NCBI GenBank assembly: GCA_900299205.1
Contig: OMIW01000090.1
Span: 1-7,978 of the forward strand
Direction of reading: 5' to 3'
From: Pseudomonadota bacterium
GTDB lineage: Bacteria > Bdellovibrionota_C > UBA2361 > OMIW01
DNA length: 7,978 nt
A program made the position numbers and the translations under genes. Below are positions 3 through 7,310 of the stretch, in pieces. The notes beneath the pieces were generated by a model. The model made no database searches and had not been told where the DNA came from. It saw nothing but the letters and a program-made list of their open reading frames with translations. Within the stretch, counting starts at the first letter, position 1; each line of letters starts with the position of its first letter.

Positions 3-1607
3 GCTCCCCACTGGCGAGCTGCCGTTCATCTTGCTCACAACGGGTGGTTTGTATGGCGCGATGCTCTCTTTGGCGACCTATTTGTAGGGGCGGAGCTGCT
101 TATTCCAGCACTCCTTACCTGGATAGCCGGCTCTGCGCTGGTGCTTCTCACCACCCATCGATCGATGCTCCTCGCGACGAGTAGTTGGCTCCTGTCCGGC
201 ATTGCCTTTGCCTCTTTCATCGTGGGGCGAGACCCCGTTACTTGGTCGTGTATCGCTGGAACAACGATACTCTCGTGTGCGCTCAGCCTTCCACCTCCGA
301 CCCCGAGAACCGCCCGACTCCTCGCCGTCGGACAACCGATGCTCATCTTATTGAGTGGCGCTTTGTCGCTGCAGTTTTTCCCCCTTATCCTTGGGGTCTC
401 CCTCCTTAGTACCCCCCCCAAGATCCACCTCAGGCTCTCCCCCTCTGTCTGGGCAGGTATCGGTCTCGTCCTTTTGACGATCTTCTCCCTCACACCCGCC
501 ATCCCCGATCTCGATTATCCCCGACATGCCCGGGTCACCGATTGGGTGGAGGCAACCGACATGGTGCATGCCCTCGTCGGACCGACCTCTCCGATTCAGT
601 TTATCGATATACGCGGCATTCAGAGTCGCCTCGTCACCTATCTCGCTGTGATAGCCTCATGGCTTGTAGGAGGGGTCTTCATGTCCCGACATCGAAGGAC
701 GGTGCTCGTTCCTCTGGTAGGTACTGCTCTTGTCTTTCTTGATACGCTCCCCATACGCCGTATCCAGGAAACAAGCATCCTTCTCGCGCTGGGTCGTCTC
801 TTCCCACACGGCACATCGTTTCCGAGCGCATGGATCCTCGCAGGATACCTTCCTCTTTTGTGCGCAATCACGGTTGCGCGTTCGTCAGGATTCATGCTCC
901 GGGCACTCTGGACTCTCGCCACGGTGGGGAGCGCGGTTATTACCATCCGTCTGCCCGTTCTGCCACCCCCGCCAGCTCCCGCGCAAGAGCTGATATCACT
1001 TTCCCCGAATCTTTTGTTCACCCCCTCTCGGGTGGTCGCCGAGCAGAGCACCCATCAGGTCGTTGCGACCATTCGGAATCAGGAATCGGTTATCCAACCA
1101 ATGACCTCGTTCGATGCAACCATCACCGCCTCAGCGAACGCCTCCGATGCCGGGAAATTGATCGATCCACCTCCGGGCTGGCGATGGACCTCGGGGGGCG
1201 GAACTCAGAGGGGCATCGAATGGCTCGCAGTCAGAGTTGCCAAGCCAGAGCTGCTATCTGGAATCACTATCGATTCCGGCGATTATCTGAGCGACTTTGC
1301 GCGCGGCATATCAGTCCTTGGTGCCCCCTCATGCCCCCCCGATTGGGATCCCGCTCACGGGGAACCTATTCGAGTCGAACCCTTGGCGACGATCAACGAT
1401 TGGCGAGGCCCCATCGCCGTGACCCCCAAAGGGTTACTGTACTATGGGCCCCTCACCAAGATGACCGTATATTTTAACCGACCGACTATCACGCAATGCC
1501 TCCTAATTCGGCAAACCGGAACAGCTCCCTACGACTGGTCTATTATGAAGATAGGATTGTGGCGAACGGCACACGGGAACGAGCATAATCACCCACCCAA
1601 CAGGTGA
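3..1607 (+). CDS. Polytopic membrane protein with C-terminal discoidin-like domain (5' partial)
   Basis: The reading frame is open from the left edge, giving 534 visible residues, so the true start lies outside the window. A GTG at 141 is in frame, but the hydrophobic coding character continues upstream of it. Roughly nine or ten hydrophobic segments fill visible residues 25-320. They are followed by a proline-rich linker (PVLPPPPAPA, near residue 320) and a soluble tail. Residues about 368-520 look like a galactose-binding, F5/8 type C fold: an early SANASDAG stretch, then WRWTSGG, EWLAVRVAKPELLSGITI, and a late CLLIRQTG plus YDWSIMKIGLW. Many-helix proteins with such a tail are often GT-C type glycosyltransferases or cell-envelope polysaccharide proteins. 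That function is inference, because the N-terminal catalytic loop would lie outside the window. The gene ends 19 bp inside the convergent ribBA. A C8 tract at 412-419 lies within the coding region. Confidence 0.8.
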   Translation, partial: APHWRAAVHLAHNGWFVWRDALFGDLFVGAELLIPALLTWIAGSALVLLTTHRSMLLATSSWLLSGIAFASFIVGRDPVTWSCIAGTTILSCALSLPPPTPRTARLLAVGQPMLILLSGALSLQFFPLILGVSLLSTPPKIHLRLSPSVWAGIGLVLLTIFSLTPAIPDLDYPRHARVTDWVEATDMVHALVGPTSPIQFIDIRGIQSRLVTYLAVIASWLVGGVFMSRHRRTVLVPLVGTALVFLDTLPIRRIQETSILLALGRLFPHGTSFPSAWILAGYLPLLCAITVARSSGFMLRALWTLATVGSAVITIRLPVLPPPPAPAQELISLSPNLLFTPSRVVAEQSTHQVVATIRNQESVIQPMTSFDATITASANASDAGKLIDPPPGWRWTSGGGTQRGIEWLAVRVAKPELLSGITIDSGDYLSDFARGISVLGAPSCPPDWDPAHGEPIRVEPLATINDWRGPIAVTPKGLLYYGPLTKMTVYFNRPTITQCLLIRQTGTAPYDWSIMKIGLWRTAHGNEHNHPPNR

Positions 1608-2812
1608 CCCATCCGAATTTGTTTCGTCTCAAGATATCGCGCACAGAGGGGATCATGCGGAACGAGCGACGGCACTCGTTCGGTGATGGCGATGCCATAA
1701 CTTTCAATCGCCGATAGCTTATGTGGGTTGTTTGTCATGAGGCGAATTCGGGTGATTCCAAGTGCCTTCAACATCCCAGCAGCGACGTGATAATCTCGTT
1801 CATCCGGTTCAAAACCGAGCGCAGTGTTGGCATCCACCGTATCGAGGCCCGCATCCTGAAGTTCGTACGCTCGGAGCTTGTTACCTAATCCGATCCCCCG
1901 TCCCTCCTGACGGAGGTAGAGAACCCCTCCCCGCCCCTCTGAAACAATCCTCTCCATCGCCCCAGAGAGCTGGGTACCACAATCGCATCGGCGACTTCCG
2001 AGAATATCCCCGGTGAGACACTCTGAATGAATACGGATAAGAGGGGGTTCCTCATCATCAACAACCTTACCCCGAATGAATGCAAGGTGTTCCTTAAGGT
2101 CGGCCTCATCCTCGCACGAAATGACCCGAAAAGACCCCCACGGGGTCTCCCGCTCAACATCGGCAGTTATCCGCACCAGTGGATATCGAGCAAGGCGGTG
2201 CTGACGAATCTCTTCGATCGAGGTGATCAGTAGATCGTGTTTCTTCGCAAATGCAATGACCTCAGCACCACGTGAAACCGTTCCATCAGAATTAAGGATC
2301 TCGCAGATTACCGCCGATGGGGGACTTCCGCAGAGCCTGGCGAGGTCGAACGAACCCTCCGTCTGCCCTCTCCGCCCGAATACTCCCCGCTCGTCTGCAA
2401 CGAGAGGCACGATACATCCCGGCACAACAAACGATTCAGGTCTTGCATCTATTTTCGCCACTTCGCGTATTGTGCGGGCACGAACCGACGCACCGCACGC
2501 AGCTCCACACGCCGGATCTCTTAGCCCCACGGTCACCGCGAAAGGGGTCCCGAACGAACTACGATTATCTTCTGTCTGAAATCCTAATCCGAGCCGGAGC
2601 GCCTGCGAGCGCTCGATGCTCATACATATGAGCCCGCCACACTCACGTATCATGAAAGTTACTGCTGAAGCTTCTATCCGGTCCGCGAGGAATACGAGAT
2701 CGCCCTCGTTCTCTCGATCATCGTCATCAACAAGAACAACCCCTCGGCCCGCGAGTAAATGCTCGCATATGTCAGGTATCGCCGCACAATAGGGAGAGAA
2801 AAAAGAGCTCAT
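1589..2812 (-). CDS. ribBA: RibBA-type protein: GTP cyclohydrolase II with a degenerate DHBP synthase domain
   Basis: This 407-residue two-domain protein belongs to riboflavin biosynthesis. The C-terminal half (about 211-407) is GTP cyclohydrolase II (RibA), which opens GTP to the first pyrimidine intermediate. It has the zinc ligands C265, C276 and C278 in HSECLTGD/GSRRCDCG, the YLRQEGRGIGL loop, Y316 in RAYELQD, LGFEPDERD, TNNPHK and the usual MGHLL ending. The N-terminal half (about 10-205) is homologous to 3,4-dihydroxy-2-butanone-4-phosphate synthase (RibB) and keeps DDRENEGD at 31-38. However, RxGHTEA reads RRGQTEG (metal-ligand His replaced by Q150), PGHxFPL reads PGCIVPL (C133), and the TTGxSAxDR stretch is replaced (ACGAACGASVR, 101-111). 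This half is therefore probably inactive. The ATG at 2812 is the only good start ahead of the domain, and no clear Shine-Dalgarno sequence precedes it. The gene lies 77 bp downstream of nrdR, a common partner of rib genes. Confidence 0.95.
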   Translation of the reverse strand: MSSFFSPYCAAIPDICEHLLAGRGVVLVDDDDRENEGDLVFLADRIEASAVTFMIRECGGLICMSIERSQALRLGLGFQTEDNRSSFGTPFAVTVGLRDPACGAACGASVRARTIREVAKIDARPESFVVPGCIVPLVADERGVFGRRGQTEGSFDLARLCGSPPSAVICEILNSDGTVSRGAEVIAFAKKHDLLITSIEEIRQHRLARYPLVRITADVERETPWGSFRVISCEDEADLKEHLAFIRGKVVDDEEPPLIRIHSECLTGDILGSRRCDCGTQLSGAMERIVSEGRGGVLYLRQEGRGIGLGNKLRAYELQDAGLDTVDANTALGFEPDERDYHVAAGMLKALGITRIRLMTNNPHKLSAIESYGIAITERVPSLVPHDPLCARYLETKQIRMGHLLGG

Positions 2813-5193: not shown

Positions 5194-6612
5194 ATGTCGT
5201 CAGCAGCTCCGTTATCACTTGGTTCGCCCAATATCATAAACAAGCTTTGGTCTCTTCATTCGGTAGTCGCCCCCGAAGGATACCCAACGGTGCTCACGAT
5301 TGATGGTATGCTCATTCACGAGGTGACTTCCCCCCAGGCATTTCAGTACCTTGAAGATCATCAACTCCCGATTGCATACCCCGATTACATCTTCGGCACC
5401 CTCGATCACAGCATCCCGACCCGACCCGATCGACACATCATCCGCGATGAGGTAGCGCGCTCTCAGGTCGAGCTTTTCCGATCGAATACCGCGAAGCGCG
5501 GACTCACGATCTTCGATTTTGATAGTGGTCATCAGGGTGTTGTTCATGTCATCGGCCCTGAGCTCGGGATCGCTCAACCGGGGCTGTCCCTCGTCTGCGG
5601 CGATTCGCATACCGCCACCCTCGGCGCGTTCGGAGCGCTTGCCTTCGGGGTCGGCACTTCCGAGGTGATGCACGTCATGGCGACCGGGTGTGTCCTCCAG
5701 TATCGTCCCAAAACGATGGAGGTAGCCGTCACGGGCTCACTCCCCCCCGGAGTTTCCGCAAAAGATATCGTCCTCGCAATTATCAATCGGCTTGGGGTCG
5801 GTGGTGCAAATGGTCATTTTATTGAATACCGTGGCGACACCATTTCAGGGCTCGACATGGATGCACGGATGACGATATGCAACATGTCGATTGAATGCGG
5901 TGCGCGGGGAGGACTGATCGGGCCCGATGACGTCACCTTTACATACCTCAAGGGACGACGATACGCCCCCCAGGGCGAACAGTGGGACGAAGCGGTCAGC
6001 TATTGGCGCTCCCTTGCGTCAGCCCCCGACGCATTTTATGACACCAGCATCTCAGTGAATGCCGCGGCATTAAAACCAATGATCACCTGGGGCACCAACC
6101 CCGCACAGTCCGTTGCAATCGATGAACCGATCCCTCTCCCAGAAACCCTCTCAACCACCGAACGGCTCGCACAGCAACAATCTCTCGCGTACACAAAACT
6201 TACTGCGGGCAAATCACTGCTCGGAACCCCGATTCAATGGGCCTTTTTGGGTTCGTGCACAAACGCCCGCATCTCGGATCTTCGGCTCGCTGCAGATATC
6301 ATCAAAGGGCGACGGGTCGCCGATGACGTTACCTTTCTCGTCGTCCCGGGCTCCGAATCGGTCAGGGCACAGGCGATAGCTGAGGGACTCGATAAGATAT
6401 TTATCGAAGCGGGAGCACAGTTTCGGATGCCCGGGTGTTCAATGTGCCTCGGCATGAACGATGACATAGTCCCCGCAGGGCAACGGTGCATCAGTTCATC
6501 GAATCGCAACTTTGTCGGACGTCAGGGACCAGGAAGCATCACCCATCTGGCCTCTCCCGCTACAGTCGCCGCGAGTGCTCTTGCAGGAGTAATAACAGCG
6601 TCGGGTGATTAG
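5194..6612 (+). CDS. leuC: 3-isopropylmalate dehydratase large subunit LeuC
   Basis: LeuC, with LeuD, isomerises 2-isopropylmalate to 3-isopropylmalate in leucine biosynthesis using a [4Fe-4S] cluster. The 472-residue length matches the enterobacterial-type subunit. The cluster ligands are C355 (FLGSCTNARISDLR), C415 and C418 (PGCSMCLGMNDD). Aconitase-family active-site stretches are present: LDHSIPT, VVHVIGPE and CGDSHTAT (136-142). Later blocks include AKDIVLAII, GARGGLIGPDD, WGTNPAQ, LVVPGSESV and SNRNFVGRQG. Two conserved spots differ: the His usually following DSHTAT is L143, and the usual ATQ after the TSEV-HV block reads ATGC. The ATG at 5194 has AGGGAA at good spacing; the N-terminal region is slightly longer than usual before NKLWSLHSVV. 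leuD follows after 101 bp. Confidence 0.97.
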   Translation: MSSAAPLSLGSPNIINKLWSLHSVVAPEGYPTVLTIDGMLIHEVTSPQAFQYLEDHQLPIAYPDYIFGTLDHSIPTRPDRHIIRDEVARSQVELFRSNTAKRGLTIFDFDSGHQGVVHVIGPELGIAQPGLSLVCGDSHTATLGAFGALAFGVGTSEVMHVMATGCVLQYRPKTMEVAVTGSLPPGVSAKDIVLAIINRLGVGGANGHFIEYRGDTISGLDMDARMTICNMSIECGARGGLIGPDDVTFTYLKGRRYAPQGEQWDEAVSYWRSLASAPDAFYDTSISVNAAALKPMITWGTNPAQSVAIDEPIPLPETLSTTERLAQQQSLAYTKLTAGKSLLGTPIQWAFLGSCTNARISDLRLAADIIKGRRVADDVTFLVVPGSESVRAQAIAEGLDKIFIEAGAQFRMPGCSMCLGMNDDIVPAGQRCISSSNRNFVGRQGPGSITHLASPATVAASALAGVITASGD

Positions 6613-6614
6613 TG

Positions 6615-6645
6615 CCCGGGAGGAGGTGCTGAAAGGAACTTTCAG
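6615..6645 (+). promoter_or_regulatory. Orphan ribosome-binding sequence followed by hairpin
   Basis: In the leuC-leuD gap a near-perfect Shine-Dalgarno sequence (GGGAGGAGGT, ending at 6627) has no ATG at usable spacing. It is followed directly by a perfect 7-bp inverted repeat CTGAAAG-GAA-CTTTCAG (6629-6645). The leuD ATG is 86 nt further on and lacks its own ribosome-binding sequence. It may be a ribosome standby or mRNA-processing element, or a relic of a lost start. Confidence 0.35.
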
Positions 6646-6713
6646 AGCTTCGCCGATATTGCCCAGAACGAATCCTCTATCGCTCATAATTTTACGATTT
6701 GCTTAACCGTTCC

Positions 6714-7310
6714 ATGGAAACCTTCTCAACGCTCACCTCAAACTTCATCCCTCTTCCGATCGACGATGTCGACACCGACATGATCATCCCCGCCCGCCAT
6801 CTCCGAAACACCGGCAGAACCGGCTACGGGGCGTTTGCGTTTGAAAATCTCAGACGCGATAACCCCACCTTCCCTATCGGGAACCCTTCCTATTCAGGAG
6901 CCGCCATCCTTGTTGCCGGCAATAATTTCGGATGTGGCTCATCTCGAGAACACGCTGTATGGGCATTGCGGGAGATCGGGATTCGGGTCGTCATCGCCGA
7001 ATCATTCGCCGATATCTTCCGGAACAACGCCGAGAAGAACGGACTTCTTCCCGTTGTCGCAGAGCGACCGGTGATTGAAAAACTCTGGCAAGTACCCGTG
7101 GATAAGAGCGCAACCATCACCGTCGATCTCTCGACACAGACGGTCAGAAGTGACGCTCTCGATGCCTCGTTTGCCTTCACCTGCGATCCTTTTCGCAAGC
7201 ATTGCCTCTTGAACGGGTTTAGTGACGTTGATTACCTCCTATCGCACAAGGAAGAGATAGCGCGTCACTTTCAGGTGGCAGGGACACGGCGGTTTTTGCG
7301 GGTTGATTGA
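6714..7310 (+). CDS. leuD: 3-isopropylmalate dehydratase small subunit LeuD
   Basis: LeuD is the swivelling small subunit that pairs with LeuC in the isopropylmalate isomerase. From the ATG at 6714 it has 198 residues, the usual size. It begins METFSTLTSNFIPL and then shows VDTDMIIPARHL, RTGYGAFAFENLR, the substrate-loop signature NNFGCGSSREHAVWAL, SFADIFRNNAEKNGLLPV, and the C-terminal FRKHCLLNG. An in-frame TTG at 6699 would add five residues, but the family starts at the MET. An in-frame TAA at 6687 blocks longer versions. Neither start has a good Shine-Dalgarno sequence, which is odd because leuC and leuD products are needed in equal amounts; see the orphan element just upstream. A CATAAT at 6685 could be the -10 of an internal promoter, but no good -35 matches it. 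It converges with plsX. Confidence 0.96.
   Translation: METFSTLTSNFIPLPIDDVDTDMIIPARHLRNTGRTGYGAFAFENLRRDNPTFPIGNPSYSGAAILVAGNNFGCGSSREHAVWALREIGIRVVIAESFADIFRNNAEKNGLLPVVAERPVIEKLWQVPVDKSATITVDLSTQTVRSDALDASFAFTCDPFRKHCLLNGFSDVDYLLSHKEEIARHFQVAGTRRFLRVD

Follow-up and report, generated by a model that had tools for sequence, protein, structure and literature searches.

Reciprocal loss of active-site loops in two RibBA paralogues points to a composite DHBP synthase in a bacterial class

A ribBA gene with a partial DHBP synthase site

The window analysed here, by which we mean the whole stretch of 7,978 nucleotides (contig OMIW01000090.1), carries on its minus strand a gene whose product of 407 amino acids (ORF translation) joins a RibB (DHBP synthase) domain to a GTP cyclohydrolase II (GCHII) domain, that is, PF00926 fused to PF00925 in the architecture of a RibBA. 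This gene and its relatives in the class are referred to as alpha, and a second RibBA-like gene, described below, as beta. DHBP synthase is a homodimer with its active sites between the subunits (PMC10366380). In the V. cholerae enzyme each site is formed by loops 1 (34-41), 2 (82-98) and 3 (175-185) of the first monomer and by loops 4 (103-111) and 5 (132-138) of the other (PMC5228156), and we refer to these two sets as cis and trans. Residues are numbered as in E. coli RibB, by alignment of the window protein to it; this equals the V. cholerae numbering minus one. The features of the gene are the following, in window positions:

1589 to 2812, minus strand: alpha gene, RibBA with intact GCHII and a putative half-site DHBP synthase domain (ORF, Pfam, clade)
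2201 to 2773, minus strand: RibB (DHBP synthase) domain, amino acids 14-204 (PF00926, 191 bits)
1670 to 2161, minus strand: GCHII domain, intact, amino acids 218-381 (PF00925 GTP_cyclohydro2, 214 bits)
2699 to 2728, minus strand: loop 1 (cis), kept, DDDDRENEGD; R37, E38, E40 and D42 in 36/36 alpha covering them
2546 to 2575, minus strand: loop 2 (cis), kept, TEDNRSSFGT; T93 in 37/37 alpha and 1/35 beta
2480 to 2512, minus strand: loop 4 (TTGxSAxDR position), lost, ACGAACGASVR; T107 in 2/37 and D113 in 1/37 alpha
2405 to 2422, minus strand: loop 5 (PGHxFP position), PGCIVP, H136 lost; H136 in 18/37 alpha and 35/35 beta
2357 to 2371, minus strand: RGQTE (Q at H153, then T154 and E155, with R150 just before at amino acid 147); R150 and T154 invariant in alpha
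2270 to 2305, minus strand: loop 3 (cis), CEILNSDGTVSR, kept with M182V; E174 in 38/38 alpha and 6/35 beta

Convergent to ribBA, positions 141-1607 (plus strand) encode a 488-amino-acid protein that has no Pfam match and whose homologues lie downstream of alpha in loci L256, L260, L261 and L264. The genes leuC and leuD (5194-7310, plus strand) stand between plsX and fabG, unlike in the relatives showing both of the latter (L253, L256, L257, L258, L264), where plsX and fabG are adjacent. An Rfam search of the window returned no match. AlphaFold2, given the window protein as a single sequence, produced a model with a pLDDT of 35, which was set aside.

The GCHII half is intact, as the first-pass annotation of this DNA had stated: SECLTGD...RCDCG and RQEGRGIGL are both preserved in the alignment, the zinc cysteines 54, 65 and 67 are present in every alpha sequence spanning them, and the protein scores above the cut-off of NCBIfam TIGR00505 for ribA (234.4, cut-off 205.85). 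The RibB domain is full-length by Pfam and falls below the cut-off of TIGR00506 for ribB (158.6, cut-off 177.45). Alignment to E. coli RibB bore out the residue calls made earlier: H153 is replaced by Q150 of the window protein, H136 by C133 and D113 by V110, DDRENEGD is kept, and the TTGxSAxDR block is indeed unrecognisable, with G103, A104 and G107 standing at T106, T107 and S110. Retained are R37, E38, E40 and D42 (amino acids 33-38), together with T93, R150, T154, C173 and E174. Scored over 14 residues (8 cis and 6 trans), a list picked after inspection of the alignment and for which the loop partition alone comes from PMC5228156, the window protein keeps 8/8 cis and 0/6 trans residues and therefore lacks a complete DHBP synthase set in its single chain.

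Not all of these substitutions carry the same weight. Loss of function has been reported at E39, E41 and H154 of the V. cholerae DHBP synthase, and for the M. jannaschii enzyme upon T-to-S and D-to-S changes in loop 4 (PMC5228156). The earlier emphasis on the metal-ligand His (H153Q) did not hold up, since Gln occurs at 153 in 7/17 otherwise complete reference RibBs as well as in complete planctomycete and Nitrospira RibBAs, so that H153Q is no sign of a dead enzyme. Judged from the alignment, the informative losses in alpha are those of T107 and D113 in loop 4, gone in 35 and 36 of the 37 sequences that have the column. The claim that the RibB half lacks residues it would need as a homodimer is supported, and a homodimer of the window alpha is predicted to be devoid of DHBP synthase activity. 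The pattern is present to some degree in 38/38 alpha sequences (37 genomes) and is thus not due to chance.

A complementary paralogue in the same genome

The genome to which the window belongs (2.45 Mb in 206 contigs, 89.75% complete) contains exactly two PF00926 genes, both RibBA-like, alpha and the unlinked beta:

Contig C9 of the window genome, locus L002, 361 to 1566: beta gene, both RibBA halves present

In beta, loop 1 reads DDCASASASA, the GHTE motif AIPE and the CEI motif FSY, and the GCHII zinc ligands are gone, while GxSGISIADR and PGHIFP are retained: loop 5 is full and loop 4 largely so, with T106G and T107S. The first-pass annotation expected another RibB in the genome. A second PF00926 gene was found, but it is not an intact rescue copy, beta being without loops 1-3. 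The site composed of the cis residues of alpha and the trans residues of beta scores 12/14 in this genome because of T106G and T107S in beta. T107S falls at the position where, according to PMC5228156, a T-to-S change abolished the activity of the M. jannaschii enzyme.

Directly after beta lies an HD-domain gene (L002 1601-2545; PF01966, sometimes with HD_assoc_2). The same arrangement was seen in 12/12 class loci compared (L100, L103, L104, L108, L110-L112, L196-L200), and because the HD-domain gene adjoins beta here as in relatives, we consider the window-genome beta the positional orthologue. Linkage of an FMN riboswitch to beta was found in none of 45 class genomes. A structural model of a class beta protein (14 sequences; pLDDT 73, pTM 0.69) confirms the fold only, showing that this protein keeps the RibB/RibBA fold.

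Losses follow the subunit boundary throughout the class

Our class survey covered 45 genomes, 40 of them with PF00926 genes; in public records, class members are labelled Deltaproteobacteria, Proteobacteria, Oligoflexia and the like. Alpha was found in 37 genomes, of which 35 also have beta; the remaining two are 84% and 79% complete, and no class genome had beta without alpha. Three genomes do not conform. In G006 and G043 a complete RibBA is the only copy and beta is missing. G009 (L015 and L059) combines an intact stand-alone RibB, adjoining a lumazine synthase match, with a RibBA elsewhere in the genome in which loop 1 is lost, the RibB half is broken and GCHII is intact. The pair-bearing genomes contain no further PF00926 gene to supply DHBP. 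Most of them also encode RibH, RibE and RibD, with gaps mainly in incomplete assemblies; the alpha neighbourhood is plsX-fabG-acpP-nrdR-(ribE)-ribBA, and alpha adjoins ribE, ribD or ribH in many class genomes. DHBP is therefore expected to be required. The lumazine synthases of the class (L182-L195) fall into two PF00885 score bands, about 180-198 and about 105-125 bits, suggesting that there may be two kinds of RibH.

The residues lost from each paralogue are largely those kept by the other. R37, E38, E40, G41, D42, T93, T154 and E174 do not vary among alpha and are gone from most or nearly all beta (the cis residues invariant in alpha include E38, E40, T93, R150, T154 and E174). G104, T107, S110, D113 and H136 are lost or variable in alpha and 91-100% retained in beta, with S110, D113 and H136 in 35/35 and T107 in 33/35. 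Among the conserved columns of the published loops, cis columns are better kept in alpha by 12:1 and trans columns better in beta by 0:6 (Fisher p = 0.00026). The single column against the partition in this test is M83, which in the alignment runs counter to the cis/trans division: position 83 (window amino acid 79) is Gln in 37/37 alpha and Met in complete enzymes and 33/35 beta.

By the score introduced above, the composite site, with cis residues from alpha and trans residues from beta, reached 14/14 of the residues picked after alignment inspection in 31/35 pairs (mean 13.7). The reciprocal site was complete in 0/35 (mean 2.5), and a homodimer site in 0/35 alpha and 0/35 beta, so that neither paralogue carries a full catalytic set by itself.

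The same split in a second bacterial group

Through locus L150 (MAG S145_11, outside the class) we reached a second group, a set of 36 related genomes that yielded 28 pairs. Here, loops 1-3 are retained by the subunit A', whose GCHII is dead, and its partner B' has an intact one; the intact GCHII is hence on the opposite subunit compared with the window's class. B' is without loops 1-3 and retains loops 4-5 in 15/28 pairs, and loop 4 of the corresponding A' is damaged, severely in most (it is intact in G073 and changed at T106 in G057). The other 13 pairs are intermediates in which most loops remain: 12/13 A' have Ser, Asn or Thr in place of H136, and E174Q is present in 13/13 B'. The composite site is complete in 28/28 pairs and the reciprocal site in 0/28, A' alone being complete only in G063 and G073. 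In the fully split pairs the partition is 14:1 vs 0:4 (p = 0.0013). In the relatives G071, G077, G087 and G090 the only RibBA is complete and, as in G006 and G043 of the window's class, has no partner.

Ancestry and a possible order of loss

In a tree computed with the active-site loops masked, the alpha and beta clades received SH-aLRT values of 100 and 99, and in a careful subset tree both had bootstrap values of 100. These trees are most simply read as a single old duplication, or an acquisition, after which the copies underwent reciprocal loss and were inherited vertically. AU tests rejected neither a clade of alpha with A' (p 0.34) nor one of beta with B' (p 0.24); an independent origin of the two groups was thus not concluded from the tree alone, shared ancestry of like subunits being compatible with these tests. 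That the losses themselves took place separately is concluded from the intermediates, which still hold most of loop 4 (A') and of loop 1 (B'), and also from the position of GCHII on opposite subunits. It is likely, in our judgement, that a homodimer with two identical sites has repeatedly become an obligate one-site heterodimer by reciprocal half-site loss, in two groups with GCHII on opposite sides. The intermediates suggest a possible order, in which E174 was lost from one copy, then H136 from the other, then whole loops.

A predicted heterodimer and its alternatives

What was observed directly is that there are two such genes, that across the class their losses divide along the subunit boundaries of the published dimer, that the genes are inherited together, and that the pattern recurs with intermediates. 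From this we infer that alpha and its unlinked partner assemble into a catalytically active enzyme, with a high probability that it is an obligate heterodimer with one composite DHBP synthase site. Alpha would give loops 1-3, with the metal and substrate ligands (R37, E38, E40, D42, T93, R150, T154, E174), and beta would give in trans loops 4 and 5, with the lid and neighbouring residues (T107, S110, D113, H136). Each heterodimer would then have one working composite site and one vacant reciprocal site; GCHII would be on alpha only, and the dead GCHII half of beta may serve dimerisation or be a structural relic. In the open-access literature searched, we found no description of a heterodimeric DHBP synthase.

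The first-pass annotation had instead proposed a dead RibB half in alpha, as in plant RIBA3, which may have a structural or regulatory function, with DHBP coming from another enzyme. Alpha does lack T107 and D113, dead halves persist in RIBA3 (PMC3509567) and RibBX (PMC10012899), and G009 pairs an intact stand-alone RibB with a RibBA of broken RibB half. Yet the other PF00926 gene is itself half-broken in 35/37 genomes, with none found in the remaining two, and a domain with a structural role only is not expected to keep all cis residues and lose only trans ones. Since the losses follow the subunit supplying each loop, the retained RibB domain of alpha is best read as a probable catalytic half-site, and we regard a dead domain as very improbable. 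The same annotation named ligands supplied by shifted residues as what would overturn its view; this does apply, though in an unforeseen way, the missing residues being most likely supplied by another polypeptide. A further alternative takes alpha homodimers to be competent and beta to be an allosteric activator without active-site residues, in the manner of the dead paralogues that activate trypanosomatid AdoMetDC and DHS (PMC5201418, PMC3663545). This seems very improbable to us, since the active-site residues preserved in beta are precisely those of loops 4 and 5, which alpha lost, and the second group likewise has them missing from A' and present in B'.

The case for a split enzyme is weakest in the window's own genome, where function is less sure than for the class. 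RibD, RibE and RibH were not found in its 89.75% complete assembly, a class-specific alignment search for lumazine synthase (RibH) giving a best E of 0.3, and the riboflavin pathway may for this reason be incomplete or lost. Compared with most pair-bearing relatives, the missing genes could reflect an assembly gap, divergence or real loss. A deletion of ribD and ribE at the window locus, where nrdR directly precedes ribBA, was considered and is countered by G010, which has the same nrdR-ribBA order and its ribD, ribE and ribH elsewhere in the genome. Together with the missing genes, T106G and T107S in beta and the long branches of alpha and beta (1.3 and 1.75) would fit riboflavin auxotrophy and a pair that survives in this lineage as a decaying relic, even if the class has a split enzyme. 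Against this, 8/8 alpha cis and 4/6 beta trans residues remain despite fast evolution, both reading frames are open, and GCHII is intact. Furthermore, beta of G034 has Ser at T107 in a genome with RibD, RibE and RibH all present, so a functional pair is still possible in the window genome. We consider decay an unlikely outcome, though one with a real chance, and lean towards a functional alpha/beta pair in the window's species.

Should the heterodimer reading be true, it would explain the persistence of dead-looking enzymes through a whole bacterial class, in which each copy is liable to misannotation as either a complete RibBA or a dead pseudoenzyme. It would also predict that an E. coli ribB mutant is rescued by both genes together and by neither alone. 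The complete single copy, the duplicate with E174Q, the reciprocal loss of H136 and E174, and the full split form a natural series suited to testing how an obligate heterodimer can arise from a homodimer, which has long been argued to be a route to molecular complexity.

Comparison with known systems

The closest architectural match is the bifunctional RibBA, represented by M. tuberculosis RibA2 (PDB 4i14), which shares the two-domain arrangement and matches amino acids 18-407 of alpha (E 7.6e-92); the difference is that here the catalytic set is divided over two genes, and one composite site is predicted per dimer. A degenerate GCHII half, as in beta and A', is known from RibBX (Acinetobacter 6mnz; Shewanella, Aeromonas, Bradyrhizobium), and the class beta model matches the 6mnz structure. 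In beta, likewise, the zinc cysteine positions are replaced. RibBX retains a working RibB half (PMC10012899), whereas beta is without loops 1-3, with DRENEGD, T93 and T154 lost and E174 mostly lost. Arabidopsis RIBA2 and RIBA3 are RibBA paralogues that each lack part of the bifunctional protein, RIBA3 having an active GCHII and no DHBP synthase activity (PMC3509567). The Arabidopsis proteins have each lost a whole activity, and a bifunctional RIBA1 remains, whereas here the losses divide one active site. Alpha does not simply fall in with RIBA3, since the rest of the window genome (assembly 89.75% complete) yielded no complete DHBP synthase. In outcome, the proposed pair would resemble the trypanosomatid DHSc/DHSp heteromers, in which a heterodimer of paralogues has two interface sites, of which one functions and the other is dead (PMC7581365). 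In that system DHSp, devoid of the catalytic lysine, is described as a dead paralogue that activates its partner, whereas the losses in RibB are reciprocal and are found in two groups.
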